Positions 6,482-12,670 of a stretch of DNA of 64,000 nucleotides are shown piece by piece (position 1 is the stretch's first letter; each line of letters opens with the position of its first letter). This DNA is from Melioribacteraceae bacterium (lineage in GTDB: Bacteria; Bacteroidota; Ignavibacteria; Ignavibacteriales; Melioribacteraceae): positions 1-64,000 of the forward strand of contig BQMY01000086.1 in the NCBI GenBank assembly GCA_022181065.1, written 5' to 3'. Both the position numbers and the translations under genes were made by a program. The notes beneath the pieces were generated by a model. The model ran no database searches, was not told the DNA's origin, and worked only from the letters and a program-made list of their open reading frames with translations.

Positions 6482-6510
6482 TTGACAAGCGCGATTCTTT
6501 ACAGTAAATT
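6482..6510 (+). promoter_or_regulatory. Sigma-70-type promoter of the 6.5-10.5 kb operon
   Basis: TTGACA (6482-6487), a 17-base spacer and TAAATT (6505-6510), 28 bases before the ATG at 6538. The -35 matches the E. coli consensus fully and the -10 closely. The CTTTA-A5-CAAAG element at 6513-6527 starts just downstream, where a repressor could block initiation. Confidence 0.7.
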
Positions 6511-6512
6511 CA

Positions 6513-6527
6513 CTTTAAAAAACAAAG
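6513..6527. promoter_or_regulatory. CTTTa-AAAAA-CAAAG element, copy 1
   Basis: Imperfect inverted repeat CTTTA-AAAAA-CAAAG followed by CACTTT, directly downstream of the -10 at 6505-6510 and 10 bases before the ATG. The same 22-base stretch with one mismatch recurs at 7446-7467. It is a candidate operator for the winged-helix regulator encoded in the same operon. Confidence 0.5.
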
Positions 6528-6537
6528 CACTTTGGAA

Positions 6538-7140
6538 ATGGACGAAAAGAAAGCTTTAGAAGAACTACAGTTTATAAAAAAAGTTATTGATGACAGTAAA
6601 CGAACTATTGTCGATAACGGAATGGGATATATAGTCTGGGGAATATTGATTGTAATCGGGTTAGCCTCCACCTATTACGGAGTAGTAACCCAAAGCTATT
6701 TTGATTATGGTTATAACTGGATAATAGTGATTTCACTCGGCTGGATTTATACATTTATCGATGTCCGCCGTGAGAAAAAGACTATCCCTGTATATACCTT
6801 CAGCGCGAAAATATTAGGCTCCGTTTGGCTTTCAACCGGAATCGCTCTTACCATTCTTGGTTTTGTACCAACATTTACTGGCGCCCTGCACGGTGTTTAT
6901 GTATCACCTACGATGTCTATTGTACTCGGAATTCCATTTTATCTGACCGGAGTACTTTATGATATTCCGTTGATAAAATATTCATCAGTCGGCTGGTGGA
7001 TTGGCGGGACTGTAATGTTCATTTATCCCGGATTGTATTCATTAATTCTTATGGCAGGTATGATGCTGGTTCTTCAGGTGCTTCCGGGAATATACCTCTA
7101 CAGGAAATTCAAAAAAGAAAATGTATTAAATTATGAATGA
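6538..7140 (+). CDS. Integral membrane protein of unknown function
   Basis: A 200-residue protein with a charged N-terminus (MDEKKALEELQFIKKVIDDS) and about six hydrophobic segments, beginning near residue 29 and continuing to a final helix before the basic tail YRKFKKENVLNYE. No enzyme motif is visible. The ATG at 6538 is preferred over a TTG six bases upstream. The end overlaps the winged-helix regulator gene by eight bases, an arrangement often seen for a membrane protein that controls or is controlled by its partner regulator. Function is not recognised. Confidence 0.75.
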   Translation: MDEKKALEELQFIKKVIDDSKRTIVDNGMGYIVWGILIVIGLASTYYGVVTQSYFDYGYNWIIVISLGWIYTFIDVRREKKTIPVYTFSAKILGSVWLSTGIALTILGFVPTFTGALHGVYVSPTMSIVLGIPFYLTGVLYDIPLIKYSSVGWWIGGTVMFIYPGLYSLILMAGMMLVLQVLPGIYLYRKFKKENVLNYE

Positions 7141-7429
7141 TTTCGATTATCAGCAGCTTGATGACATCATTCATTCCCGAATCAGATTGGCTGTGATGTC
7201 TGTGCTTATTTCAGTGGAAACCGCTGAATTCAATTATCTTAAAAAAAAAGTAAACGCCACCGATGGTAACCTCAGTGTTCATATGCGCAAGCTTGAGGAT
7301 GCAGAGTATATTAACGTCACTAAAGAATTTGTAGGCAAGAAGCCGCAAACAACATATGCTCTTACTTCCAAAGGTAAAAAAGCTTTCGAACTTTATGTAG
7401 CGCGACTCGAAAAACTTATTGGTAAATAA
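7133..7429 (+). CDS. Winged-helix transcriptional regulator (HTH_34 type)
   Basis: A 98-residue DNA-binding protein. The pattern RIRLAVMSVL, then FNYLKKKVNATDGNLSVHMRKLE and the wing TYALTSKGKKAFELY, is typical of the short winged-helix (PF13601-like, ArsR/MarR-related) family that commonly sits beside a small membrane protein in Bacteroidota-group genomes. There is no extra sensor domain and no metal-binding Cys cluster. It overlaps the upstream membrane-protein gene by eight bases. The palindromes at 6513 and 7447 flank the pair and are its most likely binding sites. Confidence 0.85.
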   Translation: MNDFDYQQLDDIIHSRIRLAVMSVLISVETAEFNYLKKKVNATDGNLSVHMRKLEDAEYINVTKEFVGKKPQTTYALTSKGKKAFELYVARLEKLIGK

Positions 7430-7446
7430 AATTTTTTAAACACATA

Positions 7447-7461
7447 CTTTGAAAAACAAAG
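7447..7461. promoter_or_regulatory. CTTTG-AAAAA-CAAAG palindrome, copy 2
   Basis: Perfect 5-base inverted repeat CTTTG / CAAAG around A5, followed by CACTTT as in copy 1. It lies 30 bases upstream of the preferred start of the next gene (7492) and 17 bases after the regulator stop codon. It suggests an internal regulated promoter for the 7492-10456 part of the operon. Confidence 0.5.
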
Positions 7462-7491
7462 CACTTTACAACAAATAAAATGGAGTCCATT

Positions 7492-8250
7492 ATGAAACAG
7501 GTAAACAGTATTTTATTGCTTTTATTGGCTTTTGCAACCGTAAATTTTGCCGGAGATGATCAGATAGCGGCAAAAATAGCCGAGATCAAATCTGCTCATG
7601 AAAAAGCTTATTACAATTTTTCAAAAGAGGAGTATATGAAAATCTGGGCAGATTGTGAAAGAGTAATATCTATAGCACCCGATAACGGAGAAGCAAAATA
7701 TTTCGCTTCACTCACCGCTTTCAGACTAATGAATGTCGGACTTGTAAAAGGTGATAAATCTGTAGTAGAAAAATACGCCGATGCAGGTATTAAATATGCA
7801 GACGATATTGAAAGCGATGCAACACTTGCCGCCGAGTCCGCAATTGTGAAAGCTAACATTCTGATGATGAAACTCGCTATTGTGCCTCAGGAAGCAGCCG
7901 CACTATCCGGACAGATTCACGGTCTTATCGGGAAAGCTGAAGCAATGGATCCCGGAAATCCGCGCGCGATTCTCACCAAAGGTATCATGCTCTACAATAC
8001 TCCAGAACAGTACGGGGGCTCGGTGCAGAAAGCCGCTGAACTTTTCACATCAGCAATGGAAAGTTTTGATGAAAACTCACAAAAGCTGATCGATTGGGGA
8101 CATAATGAATCTATGGCATGGTTAGGTCAGGCATACGCACGAATGGGGAAAATAGGCAAGGCTCGCGGAATTTATAATGAAGCGTTAAAATATTATCCCG
8201 ATTTTGGTTGGGTTCGTTATCAGCTGCTACCTGCTTTAGATCAAAAATAA
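7492..8250 (+). CDS. Secreted helical (TPR-like) protein encoded with a TonB receptor
   Basis: A 252-residue protein with signal peptide (MKQVNSILLLLLAFATVNFA). It is rich in alanine-containing helices (CERVISIAPDNGEAKYFASL, RMGKIGKARGIYNEALKYYP), the latter a TPR-like unit near the C-terminus. ATG 7492 is preferred to ATG 7480 because TGGAG lies six bases before it. It sits 10 bases before the TonB-dependent receptor gene and is probably co-expressed with it, perhaps as a periplasmic accessory. I do not recognise a named family. Confidence 0.75.
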   Translation: MKQVNSILLLLLAFATVNFAGDDQIAAKIAEIKSAHEKAYYNFSKEEYMKIWADCERVISIAPDNGEAKYFASLTAFRLMNVGLVKGDKSVVEKYADAGIKYADDIESDATLAAESAIVKANILMMKLAIVPQEAAALSGQIHGLIGKAEAMDPGNPRAILTKGIMLYNTPEQYGGSVQKAAELFTSAMESFDENSQKLIDWGHNESMAWLGQAYARMGKIGKARGIYNEALKYYPDFGWVRYQLLPALDQK

Positions 8251-8260
8251 GAGGTCAACA

Positions 8261-10456
8261 ATGAGATTGTTTTATAAATTTATCCTGCTTCTTTTATTTG
8301 TGACCGGGGGAAAATTATTCTCCCAGTCACACATTTCGGGCAGAGTAACAAATGAGAAGGGTAATCCTCTTCCGTATGTAAACGTATTTATCGAAGGTTC
8401 TTTTGATGGAGATATGACAGATACAGACGGGAAATTTTCTTTTGCCACAAAACTAACCGGTGAATTAAAAATAATCGCTTCAATGGTAGGTTATGACAAA
8501 TTTGTAAAACCGGCTGCTCTTCCTGCTGAATTATCTCTTAAAATTATTTTGGAACAGACATCTATTAAGCTGAAGGAAACAGTTGTAAGCGGTAGCGCGT
8601 ACAGCTCTGAAGAAGGTAAAGGTGTTGTAGTTTCCAAAATAGATGTATATACAACGCCAGGTGGAGCTGCCGATCTATTTCAGTCGATTAAAACTCTGCC
8701 CGGTGTGACAAATGTATCGGAGAGTGCCGAATTGTACGTACGTGGCGGTGACCCGATCGAAACAGTAACCCTTATCGATCAGGCACCGATCTATCATCCA
8801 TACACCTATGAATCATCATACGGCGGTCTTTTCTCGAACGTAAATACAGCCGCAATGAAATCAATGTTTTTCTCCAGCGGCGGGTTTTCGGCAAAATATG
8901 GCAACGCGCTTTCAGGTGTGCTGGAAATAAAAACTAACAATGAGCCGCAGGTGCAGCGGTATGGTGCCGGTATATCAATGGCAGGTGTTTCATTCAGCGC
9001 GGAAGTACCAATATCGGGTTCAAAATTTGGTGGAATGGTCTATGGAAGACAAAGTTATACCAAGCCGATCATGTGGCTTAACGGCAGTGATGAGGAATTT
9101 ATAAATCACCCGGAATCAAGAGATATAAATGCTATCCTCAGCTATAAATTTTCCGAAACCGGCAGAATAAAAATAACCGGGTTTTACTCCGAAGATGAAC
9201 AGGGTGTTAAGATAAACCGCGCGGAGATGGATGGAAGTTTCTTCGGAAACACAAACAATAATTTTCTTAATGTTATCATTTCCGGAATACCTTACAAAAA
9301 TCTTTTCAGCAGCACCAGTATCTCCTATGGGAGTTTTAACCGTGACTGGAAGTTGGGAGTGCTCGATTTAACGAATGAAGATTCGGCATTTCGTTTAAGA
9401 AGTGAATCGGAATATACCGTTACAGAAAACACTAAAATAAATTTCGGCGCCGAATTTGAAAACAGGATTGAATCGTTCAGAGGAAAAATCCCGGAAGACG
9501 ATTTTAACCTTCAGGAAACCGCGCCAAATATTGTACTCGACGAATCACTCCAATTCATCAGAACAGGCGGTTATGCCGAAATAGAACATAATGGTATTTT
9601 CCATGACAAATTGTTTGTTGTTGCGGGATTGAGAGCTGATTATGTTTCGAAAATTAAAGTGGGATGGATTGATCCCCGCTTCTCGTTAGGATACCGGATT
9701 AATGAAAAAAATATCATAAAACTTGGCGCGGGACTATTTGGTCAGATTCCCGATTACAGATTATACGCCGTTGAGGATGGTAATCCTGATTTACCGCCAA
9801 TGAGGGCAAAACATCTTGTGCTGAGCTACGACCGCGAACTAAATAAAAATGACGCTCTTAGAGCCGAAATATATTACAAGGATTATGATAATCTGCCCCT
9901 GGAAGATGTAGCACTTAATTATACAGGTGAAGGATATGGTTACGCGTATGGCGCGGATATTATTCTGAAAGGAATTTTGTGGGGTGACTTAAAAGGGTGG
10001 ATATCGTACGGTTTTCTAAACTCAAAACGTTACTGGATGGATTACACCAAATACGCGCCAAGCGATTATGATATCACTCACAGTTTTACTTTCGTGAGTA
10101 AATACGATATCGGCTCCCTGTTTGAACTTGGAGTAAACTATAAATATTCAACCGGGAAGCCTTTCCGACCAATTACCGGTGCTAATTACATAACGGGTTA
10201 TGATGTATATGAGCCGGTTTACGGGGCACAGAACAGCGACCGCTATCCCGATTATCACAGACTCGATATGCGATTATCAAGATACGAACAATTTTTTGAA
10301 GGCAAATTCACTGTATTTTACTGCGAAATGATGAATATACTTAATATTCAAAACATTTTCGGGTACAGTTATAACAGTGACTATACCAAACGGGAAAAGG
10401 TAAACAGCTATTTTGGTCGCAGAACTATCGTATTGGGTGTTGAAATGACTTTCTAG
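8261..10456 (+). CDS. TonB-dependent receptor with carboxypeptidase-regulatory-like N-domain
   Basis: A 731-residue outer-membrane receptor. Order: signal peptide (1-21), CarboxypepD_reg-like beta-sandwich (about 23-105, SGRVTNEKGNPLPYVNVFIE), plug domain (about 115-230, with LPGVTNVSESAELYVRGGDP), then the 22-strand-type barrel ending in VLGVEMTF. The Bacteroidota-type N-domain rather than a STN domain argues against direct sigma-factor signalling. It is last in the operon with the winged-helix regulator and the helical secreted protein. The substrate cannot be told; no cobalamin, heme or SusD partner is next to it. Confidence 0.92.
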   Translation: MRLFYKFILLLLFVTGGKLFSQSHISGRVTNEKGNPLPYVNVFIEGSFDGDMTDTDGKFSFATKLTGELKIIASMVGYDKFVKPAALPAELSLKIILEQTSIKLKETVVSGSAYSSEEGKGVVVSKIDVYTTPGGAADLFQSIKTLPGVTNVSESAELYVRGGDPIETVTLIDQAPIYHPYTYESSYGGLFSNVNTAAMKSMFFSSGGFSAKYGNALSGVLEIKTNNEPQVQRYGAGISMAGVSFSAEVPISGSKFGGMVYGRQSYTKPIMWLNGSDEEFINHPESRDINAILSYKFSETGRIKITGFYSEDEQGVKINRAEMDGSFFGNTNNNFLNVIISGIPYKNLFSSTSISYGSFNRDWKLGVLDLTNEDSAFRLRSESEYTVTENTKINFGAEFENRIESFRGKIPEDDFNLQETAPNIVLDESLQFIRTGGYAEIEHNGIFHDKLFVVAGLRADYVSKIKVGWIDPRFSLGYRINEKNIIKLGAGLFGQIPDYRLYAVEDGNPDLPPMRAKHLVLSYDRELNKNDALRAEIYYKDYDNLPLEDVALNYTGEGYGYAYGADIILKGILWGDLKGWISYGFLNSKRYWMDYTKYAPSDYDITHSFTFVSKYDIGSLFELGVNYKYSTGKPFRPITGANYITGYDVYEPVYGAQNSDRYPDYHRLDMRLSRYEQFFEGKFTVFYCEMMNILNIQNIFGYSYNSDYTKREKVNSYFGRRTIVLGVEMTF

Positions 10457-10707: not shown

Positions 10708-12579
10708 TTATTTTTTAAGTTTTTGCGGCTTAATCATCTTTTCGGGTGAGAGTATATCATCCAACTCTTCTTTGGATAATAACTTCTTTTCCAGAACCAG
10801 TTCGTAAACACCTCGGTTTGTCGTAAGAGCTTCTTTTGCAAGCTGTGTTGAAGTTTCATATCCCAGATAGGGATTGAGTGCCGTAACCAGACCAATACTG
10901 TTTTCCACCAGATAGCGGCATCGGTCTTCGTTTGCCGTAATACCATCGATACAACGGTACTTCAGGGTTTCCATACCGTTTTTTAACATTTCTATTGACT
11001 CAAATAAACTTTGTACTATTACCGGTTCGAATACATTCAGCTCGAGCTGTCCACCCTCCGCAGCAAGTGTGACCGTCAGATCATTTCCGATAACCTTGAA
11101 CGCTATCTGGTTTACAACTTCAGGAATTACCGGATTCACTTTACCAGGCATGATCGAGGAGCCGGGCTGCATTGCCGGAAGATTTATTTCATTTATTCCT
11201 GTACGCGGACCGGAAGATAATAATCTCAGGTCATTGCTAATTTTTGAAAGTTTGACCGCAAGTCTTTTAACAGCGGATGAATATATCACAAATGCGCCTG
11301 TATCCTGAGTGGCTTCAACCAAATTACCCGCAAGTTCAATATTGAGTCCGGTGATTTCTCTCAAGTGTTTGATACATTTCGGACTGTAATCGGGATCAGA
11401 GTTTATTCCCGTTCCAATCGCGGTAGCTCCCATATTAACTTCAAGGAATAGATCAGCATTCTGATTAAGTCTTTCAATCTCTTCCTTTAAAGTAACAGCA
11501 TAAGCCTCGAACTCCTGCCCCAACGTCATTGGAACAGCATCCTGAAGCTGTGTTCTACCCATTTTGATAATGTGAGAGAACTCTTCTGCCTTCACCTTGA
11601 ATGACTCAATAAGTGACTGGAGTACTCCTACAAGTTTAATATTAGCCTTATGTAACGCCAGTTTTACAGCGGTAGGATAAGCGTCATTTGTTGACTGTGA
11701 AAGATTTACATGATTATTGGGATGACAATATTTGTATTCTCCCTTTTCATATCCTAAAATCTCAAGTGCGCGGTTCGCGATAACCTCGTTGGCGTTCATG
11801 TTTGTTGAAGTACCCGCTCCACCCTGAATCATATCAACAACAAAATGTGTATGGAACCTGCCGTTCATTATTTCGTTACATGCCTGAACAATAGCTTCAG
11901 TAACCGGCTGTGAAAGCATTCCCAAATCGTAATTGGCTTTTGCCGCTGCCATCTTAACTATTGCCAATCCTTCAATAAGCGTCGGGAAAAAGTTAAGCGG
12001 TACGCCACTTATATTAAAATTTTCGAGTGCGCGTAAAGTTTGAATACCATAGTAATACTCATAGGGTACTTCCCTGTCGCCAATGAGATCATGTTCATTG
12101 CGTGTTCTGCCTGATTGATACTGAGCAGCAACGTTTATAAGTCTGGTATTCGCCTGTCTCATTCTACGTGAAACAACGTGCGCGATCTGCGTTAAAATTT
12201 TACTCGCGATTGCACCCTCTTCCGCGATAAGCTTCATGAACTTGTCTTTATGCAATAACAGACAAGTGGTGTCGAGCGTAGTCCGGGAAGAAGTAGAATG
12301 AGGTGAGTCATCGAGTAATGAACCTTCAGCAAAAAAATCGTATTTGCTGAAAAATGTCAATCTTTTCTCATGACCGAAAGGAGTTGTTTTAAATAACTCA
12401 ATCTCCCCCTCATAAAGGAGGTATAAATTTTTGCGGGTTGTATCCTCGGCAAATAATATAGTGTTTTTGGAATATGATTTGATTTCAAATTTATCGGCGA
12501 GATAGGTAAGTTCATCTTCGCTCAGCTCTCTGAATAATTCAATTTTTTTCAGGAACCCGGTTATTGCGTCCTTCGTCAT
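10708..12579 (-). CDS. aspA: Aspartate ammonia-lyase fused to an N-terminal cyclic-nucleotide-binding-like domain
   Basis: A 623-residue fusion. Residues ~8-135 form a Crp-type cNMP-binding beta-roll (FRELSEDELTYLADKFEIKS, LYEGEIELFK, FFAEGSLLDDSPHS). Residues ~155-620 are a full aspartase (aspartate to fumarate plus ammonia), with the fumarase-superfamily signature GSSIMPGKVNP at 473-483. Normal aspartase is about 470 residues, so the extra domain is intact rather than a remnant. ATG 12579 is preferred over a TTG 21 bases upstream because GAAGG precedes it. Allosteric control by a nucleotide is inference; there is no DNA-binding helix-turn-helix between the domains. Confidence 0.92.
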   Translation of the reverse strand: MTKDAITGFLKKIELFRELSEDELTYLADKFEIKSYSKNTILFAEDTTRKNLYLLYEGEIELFKTTPFGHEKRLTFFSKYDFFAEGSLLDDSPHSTSSRTTLDTTCLLLHKDKFMKLIAEEGAIASKILTQIAHVVSRRMRQANTRLINVAAQYQSGRTRNEHDLIGDREVPYEYYYGIQTLRALENFNISGVPLNFFPTLIEGLAIVKMAAAKANYDLGMLSQPVTEAIVQACNEIMNGRFHTHFVVDMIQGGAGTSTNMNANEVIANRALEILGYEKGEYKYCHPNNHVNLSQSTNDAYPTAVKLALHKANIKLVGVLQSLIESFKVKAEEFSHIIKMGRTQLQDAVPMTLGQEFEAYAVTLKEEIERLNQNADLFLEVNMGATAIGTGINSDPDYSPKCIKHLREITGLNIELAGNLVEATQDTGAFVIYSSAVKRLAVKLSKISNDLRLLSSGPRTGINEINLPAMQPGSSIMPGKVNPVIPEVVNQIAFKVIGNDLTVTLAAEGGQLELNVFEPVIVQSLFESIEMLKNGMETLKYRCIDGITANEDRCRYLVENSIGLVTALNPYLGYETSTQLAKEALTTNRGVYELVLEKKLLSKEELDDILSPEKMIKPQKLKK

Positions 12580-12670
12580 AAGATAACCTTCATGTAACAA
12601 TAGTTTATGATTCTAAAAATATGGTGATTATATTTAGAAATAAAGTATAAATTTGATATTTGGGTATTAA

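Follow-up and report, generated by a model that had tools for sequence, protein, structure and literature searches.

The operon at positions 6482-10456 of a Melioribacteraceae bacterium contig (GenBank assembly GCA_022181065.1, contig BQMY01000086.1, positions 1 to 64,000; this 64-kb stretch, analysed as a whole, is called the window) is best read as a local regulatory module in which a small winged-helix repressor of the HTH_34 family acts at two operators within its own transcription unit, repressing its own synthesis at the first (O1) and controlling elongation into downstream envelope genes at the second (O2). A rough probability of 0.72 is given to this model, and all of the evidence that bears on it is comparative. 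The 98-residue protein would bind TACTTTG-N5-CAAAGTACTTT at both places. At O1, directly after the -10 box of promoter P1, it would block initiation and thereby limit the synthesis of itself and of the membrane protein encoded ahead of it; at O2, between the regulator gene and the TPR and receptor genes, it would control the cargo. The features of the operon, all on the forward strand, are as follows.

6482..6510, forward: promoter P1, near-consensus, with -35 box TTGACA at 6482-6487, a 17-bp spacer and -10 box TAAATT at 6505-6510
6511..6533, forward: operator O1, CACTTTAAAAAACAAAGCACTTT, immediately 3' of the -10 box and conserved in relatives
6538..7140, forward: six-helix membrane protein of 200 residues, proposed partner or sensor of the regulator; of 80 cross-phylum loci, 76 have a homologue ahead of the regulator
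7133..7429, forward: HTH_34 winged-helix regulator of 98 residues (PF13601 match), with recognition helix TDGNLSVHMRKLED at residues 43-56
7432..7437, forward: sense-strand T6 tract, 3 nt past the regulator stop and 8-13 bp 5' of O2, matching the T-tract and operator pattern found across genomes
7445..7467, forward: operator O2, TACTTTGAAAAACAAAGCACTTT, between the regulator and TPR genes; a second site 3' of the regulator is conserved in relatives
7480..8250, forward: secreted TPR protein with signal peptide, homologues in 21 of 80 loci; translation more probably starts at the ATG at 7492, which is preceded by GGAG
8261..10456, forward: TonB-dependent-receptor-like outer-membrane protein of 731 residues, homologues downstream of the module in 26 of 80 loci

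The first-pass annotation of this DNA had pointed out a 22-base sequence present twice with one mismatch, a near-consensus promoter beside the first copy, an overlap between the first two genes and a secreted-protein and receptor part after the second copy, and all four hold. The sequence ACTTTRAAAAACAAAGCACTTT is found at 6512-6533 (R=A) and 7446-7467 (R=G), TTGACA-17-TAAATT (6482-6510) lies directly 5' of copy 1, the genes at 6538-7140 and 7133-7429 share 8 nt, and copy 2 is followed by the secreted TPR protein and then by the TonB-receptor-like protein. The CTTTG-A5-CAAAG palindrome described within that sequence is perfect in the second copy, but the first copy reads CTTTA; its A5 spacer is also not conserved, the spacer being N5 in the conserved unit.

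The operator and its rarity

The conserved unit is 23 bp long, TACTTTG-N5-CAAAGTACTTT; it is made up of a 19-bp palindrome and, overlapping that, another one, AAAGTACTTT, so that three half-sites are present. Across the 4.9-Mb draft genome of the host, the search proposed in the first-pass annotation returned two matches to CTTTRAAAAACAAAG, both in this operon, with none to the reversed control, and no further match to the 22-mer was found anywhere in the genome at up to 3 mismatches. Loose palindromes within the 64-kb window occur at chance level; a chance motif is nevertheless ruled out by the genome-wide and cross-genome tests. When 294 genomes of the class were searched, ACTTTR-N5-YAAAGYACTTT, the consensus, was found at 85 sites spread over 57 of them, compared with about 7 reversed-control sites. 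On the sequence evidence the operator is almost certainly a real cis element. A large regulon in this genome was considered and rejected, as the relaxed consensus with 2 mismatches gives 15 matches against 32 for the reversed control; such matches are background only, and the regulator therefore appears to be local. In the open-access literature, nothing relevant to the core AAAGTACTTT was found among the matches listed.

In alphaproteobacterial loci, including L085, L087 and L117, an extra half-site is often seen upstream (AAAGTACTTTG-N5-CAAAGT in L117); the third half-site can thus occupy either flank of the operator.

Distribution of the module

Relatives of the membrane protein are present in 13 of 58 related genomes (the window's own counted), and in most of the 14 loci from these genomes the order membrane protein, regulator, TPR protein, receptor is repeated. 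The operator lies 33-38 bp 5' of the membrane gene in these 14 loci and again about 20 bp past the regulator stop. A wider set of 80 loci was gathered by similarity to the regulator protein alone, and includes Bacteroidota/Ignavibacteria, Gemmatimonadota, Neomarinimicrobiota, Cloacimonadota, Delongbacteria and others, with Caulobacter, Phenylobacterium, Hyphomonas and Marinicauda among its Alphaproteobacteria. A homologue of the membrane protein is encoded directly 5' of the regulator in 76 of the 80. Acidobacteriota were excluded from the phylum count because the Candidatus Sulfopaludibacter loci branch among those of Hyphomonas on the regulator tree; these loci (L106 and L108) are probably binning contamination or misassigned.

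The first-pass annotation had allowed that the motif might prove to be scattered without relation to this regulator family, and the opposite was observed in both directions. Of the 75 testable loci, 63 have the operator core within 130 bp 5' of the membrane gene, where 0.22 would be expected from background density, and when loci were gathered by the DNA pattern alone a regulator was found within about 1.5 kb in 22 of 29. In two of the remaining pattern-gathered loci the operator precedes a TPR-like protein or an amidohydrolase-like gene (assigned by eye).

Two loci carry sites away from a module. In L147 a TPR-like protein is preceded by a perfect operator, and no regulator lies within 1.5 kb. 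In L055 the TPR-like protein behind the operator has a TTGACA promoter of its own and is encoded 2.2 kb upstream of the module. Targets outside the module thus exist in some genomes.

Covariation of the recognition helix and the operator

The recognition helix (residues 43-56) and the operator half-site vary jointly across the regulator family. The helix TDGN is found with half-site TACTTT, TKGN with TGGTTT, TQGN with AAGTTT, TAGNLSVQ with TGGTTT or TAGTTT, and TDGNLGAH with TACTCT. In terms of single positions, D44 is paired with C3 in 74 of 76 operators, C3 is absent from 14 of 16 operators of non-D44 regulators, and K, Q or R44 is paired with G3; an exchange of an Asp-cytosine for a Lys-guanine contact is chemically sensible. 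The pair G48A49 accompanies C5 (5/5 against 1/87), a combination seen in Gemmatimonadota as well as in a Melioribacter-like regulator of only 52% identity. On a regulator tree built with the recognition helix left out, D44 has been lost independently at least 2 times, once in a clade of Bacteroidota and once in a Caulobacterales/Sphingomonad clade, and G3 arises in both lines. As the operator bases change with the recognition helix, the regulator is the likely binder, and the sequence evidence makes this assignment very probable.

In the table underlying these counts, the sites of L033, L036, L089, L093, L109 and L112 were entered by hand, and one row for L036 holds a false site (ATATAAA) next to the genuine one. 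In L089, L093 and L112 the operator and the membrane gene are about 1.3 kb apart, the operator lying upstream, presumably at the head of a longer operon.

The regulator

The regulator matches PF13601 (HTH_34) at 111.8 bits against a cut-off of 27, over domain positions 1-80 of 80, and is modelled with a pLDDT (predicted local distance difference test) of 89.7. Its nearest solved structure by both sequence and fold is PH1061 (1ub9), so that membership of this group is clear; the fold is also matched by MarR, PadR and HxlR proteins. HTH_34 was the only family reported for the window regulator in Pfam at an E-value of 0.001, with no match to HxlR, MarR or PadR, and the ArsR/SmtB metalloregulator model (NF033788) is reached at 22 bits against an NCBIfam cut-off of 55. 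In comparison with HxlR/YodB (DUF24) and MarR/PadR regulators, the winged-helix fold is common to all and those regulators too have palindromic operators, but the regulator here is coupled to a membrane gene. Among the open-access papers listed, none on the function or operator of HTH_34, PF13601 or PH1061 was found, which is weak evidence of novelty. Haloferax CsmR was considered as a candidate and rejected as unrelated, given its site TATCA(N4)TGATA and a motif compared with Lrp/AsnC in the CsmR paper.

A separate arrangement is seen in one family of loci (f37: L188, L189, L190 and L192) from genomes of 2-3 Mb, where HTH_34 forms the C-terminal part of a protein of about 330 residues. Pfam places a PAS domain beside HTH_34 in L188, and no membrane partner was detected in the f37 loci; these proteins pair the DNA-binding domain with a sensor of another kind.

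The position of O1, the genome-wide uniqueness of the operator and the covariation together argue for an autoregulated operon. The first-pass description of an uncharacterised autoregulated system controlling an outer-membrane receptor is likewise supported by the position of the operators, the co-occurrence with the regulator, the helix covariation and the recurring gene order.

The membrane protein

The structural model of the membrane protein has six helices (pLDDT 83.6); a fold search gave no match in the PDB, and no credible Pfam family was reached at cut-off by any of 13 homologues. In Bacteroidia its slot is filled by a diverged protein with MERSSKFLSLSG near the start. The overlapping membrane protein would sense the state of the envelope and sequester or release the regulator, in the way that SdpI of Bacillus subtilis sequesters the autorepressor SdpR at the membrane on a signal (PMC1626106). 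The likeness is in the two-gene unit of a small regulator and a polytopic membrane protein, here with an 8-nt overlap and the 76/80 pairing. The differences are that the gene order is reversed, that Pfam places the membrane protein in no known family and shows no homology to SdpI, that the regulator is of the HTH_34 family, and that the cargo is made up of envelope functions (receptor, TPR, CreD) rather than toxin immunity. By this analogy the regulator may be sequestered at the membrane, and the odds that the membrane protein is an anti-repressor or sensor are judged about even.

The membrane protein could instead simply be regulated along with the rest, perhaps as an immunity or envelope protein, without controlling the regulator, which would sense a ligand itself. 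The fusion of HTH_34 to a PAS domain in f37, where no membrane partner was found, indicates that other inputs are possible; however, the membrane gene stands directly before the regulator across phyla, and a diverged version is retained in Bacteroidia whereas the cargo genes vary. This alternative is a serious one, though the less expected of the two.

Two kinds of operator

Operators in front of the operon and those inside it are built differently. The external operators overlap or abut a promoter: a sigma-70 promoter scoring 10/12 or better is present at 19 of 32, against 0.8 expected, and in 17 the -35 box starts at -29. At the internal operators such a promoter is found in 0 of 39 (0.9 expected), and the DNA around site 2 does not resemble a second sigma-70 promoter near 7450, where the first-pass annotation had proposed looking for an internal start. 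What the internal operators have in its place is a sense-strand run of at least 5 T, about 8-14 bp 5' of the operator, present at 38 of 39 internal and 9 of 78 external sites, counts in which the relatives overlap and are not independent trials. A T-run at this offset occurs in 3% of shuffled contexts. The tract is T6-8, and a mirror run of A downstream is seen at only 6 of the 39. As the operator is palindromic and the tract one-sided and sense-oriented, the tract reports the direction of transcription. It is also found at internal sites further downstream, before a TPR or receptor-like gene (L040, L042, L051, L138 and L139). A search of the 294 genomes for T6, the spacing and the operator together gave 25 sites against no control matches, and in 23 of the 25 a regulator lies upstream on the same strand. 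These differences suggest that one repressor blocks transcription in two ways. The contrast between the two kinds of site, the internal ones promoterless and with the tract at a fixed distance before a putative protein site, is newly described here.

Because O2 has no sigma-70 promoter but does have a T-tract at a fixed distance upstream, the regulator bound there could act as a roadblock to RNA polymerase arriving from P1, with the weak rU:dA hybrid over the tract favouring pausing or termination. This reading of O2 is held tentatively, at somewhat under even odds. Bacterial repressors can act as roadblocks (PMC10310618), and roadblock terminators such as those of Reb1 and TTF-I for RNA polymerase I (Pol I), or of LacI, CodY and CcpA, resemble O2 in having a bound protein, here a predicted one, 3' of a T-rich stretch on the sense strand. 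Pol I pauses 15 bp short of its roadblock protein, within T-rich sequence (PMC12366685). A termination step at O2 is only an analogy. Speculative too is the generalisation that a repressor-gated termination site, made of an operator inside an operon with a T7 tract 8-14 bp upstream over which the polymerase is halted, is possibly in use in several bacterial lineages.

A number of observations count against the model or its O2 step. Many transcription factors are poor roadblocks (PMC10310618), and Pol I terminators, which stop about 15 bp before the roadblock, need an RNA hairpin as well (PMC12366685). The tract here is a rigid T6-8 placed 8-14 bp before a regulated operator, and no hairpin was found in the O2 region of the window. 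Site 2 or the receptor is missing from some loci, and the relatives are overlapping, non-independent samples, many of them metagenome bins. Two non-D44 regulators (A or S44, in L185 and L211) retain C3, which indicates that residue 44 alone does not set specificity and that other residues contribute.

In place of a roadblock, O2 might repress an independent internal promoter of the TPR and receptor genes, the T-tract being an unusual element that replaces the -35 box. In some bacteria, such as Campylobacter, promoters make use of T-stretches 5' of the -10 box, and the site-2 operators are as well conserved as those at site 1. This rival is a serious one, held the less likely given the missing -35/-10 pairs at all 39 internal sites and the lack of any conserved -10-like hexamer between tract and operator; the sister target in L055, which does have its own promoter, has TTGACA and no T-tract.

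At P1 itself, the position of the operator makes repression probable. Since O2 has no promoter to repress and winged-helix regulators of related families can activate, the HTH_34 protein could be an activator or dual regulator; this is improbable, as O1 lies between the -10 box and the start codon, or over the -10 box in paralogues, which is the typical position for repression.

The phase of the promoter bears on the nature of the element. In all 7 aligned D44-type loci the -35 box starts at -29 and the -10 box at -6 relative to the operator, whereas in 4 K44-type paralogue loci they stand at -18 and +5; the operator has moved 11 bp, or one helical turn, and the -10 box is inside it. In these paralogues the operator is thus mostly upstream of the transcript start and largely untranscribed, and the shift over the -10 box points to a DNA operator and not an RNA hairpin. 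That the conserved sequence is an RNA element (a CUUUG-N5-CAAAG hairpin in 5' leaders acting on translation or decay) is very improbable and was set aside on promoter phase and folding: although the inverted repeat could pair and lies close to start codons, it is mostly untranscribed where it straddles the -10 box, its half-sites covary with regulator residues, and the O2 region of the window folds no better than shuffled sequences (z 0.33).

Significance

HTH_34 proteins are widespread, and the operator, the partner gene and the residue-to-base code give testable predictions in many genomes, reaching those of Caulobacter, Hyphomonas and Bacteroidia. If the reading of site 2 is true, a whole operon would be under compact control from one promoter through the gating of elongation, and inner-membrane sensing would be linked to outer-membrane receptors and CreD-type envelope proteins. 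A single protein would then gate both initiation and read-through into envelope cargo, with neither a second promoter nor an RNA hairpin, as a bacterial, signal-controlled counterpart of the Pol I roadblock terminators.

Cargo and neighbouring genes

The receptor matches CarbopepD_reg_2 at 58.6 bits against a cut-off of 32.2, and its Plug domain falls just below threshold (23.7 against 23.9); its relatives reach the Plug and barrel families. As a SusC/RagA TonB-linked protein (TIGR04056) it scores 41 bits against an NCBIfam cut-off of 368. The cargo differs by locus and includes TPR and receptor proteins, DUF2141, pterin-dehydratase, CAAX-protease and CreD, functions that are mostly of the envelope.

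In the Bacteroidia-type modules L131, L215 and L226 the regulator is followed by CreD (PF06123), an inner-membrane protein, and in L228, which is the same place as L131, a T-tract operator precedes the CreD gene. A small protein of about 95 residues is encoded between regulator and receptor in L059, L066 and L074, which are most likely the source of the three pterin-4a-carbinolamine dehydratases among the first downstream genes. Beyond the operon, on the reverse strand of the window at 10708-12600, a single open frame appears to join a cyclic-nucleotide-binding-like N-terminal domain to an aspartase/fumarase-like enzyme, both recognised by eye.

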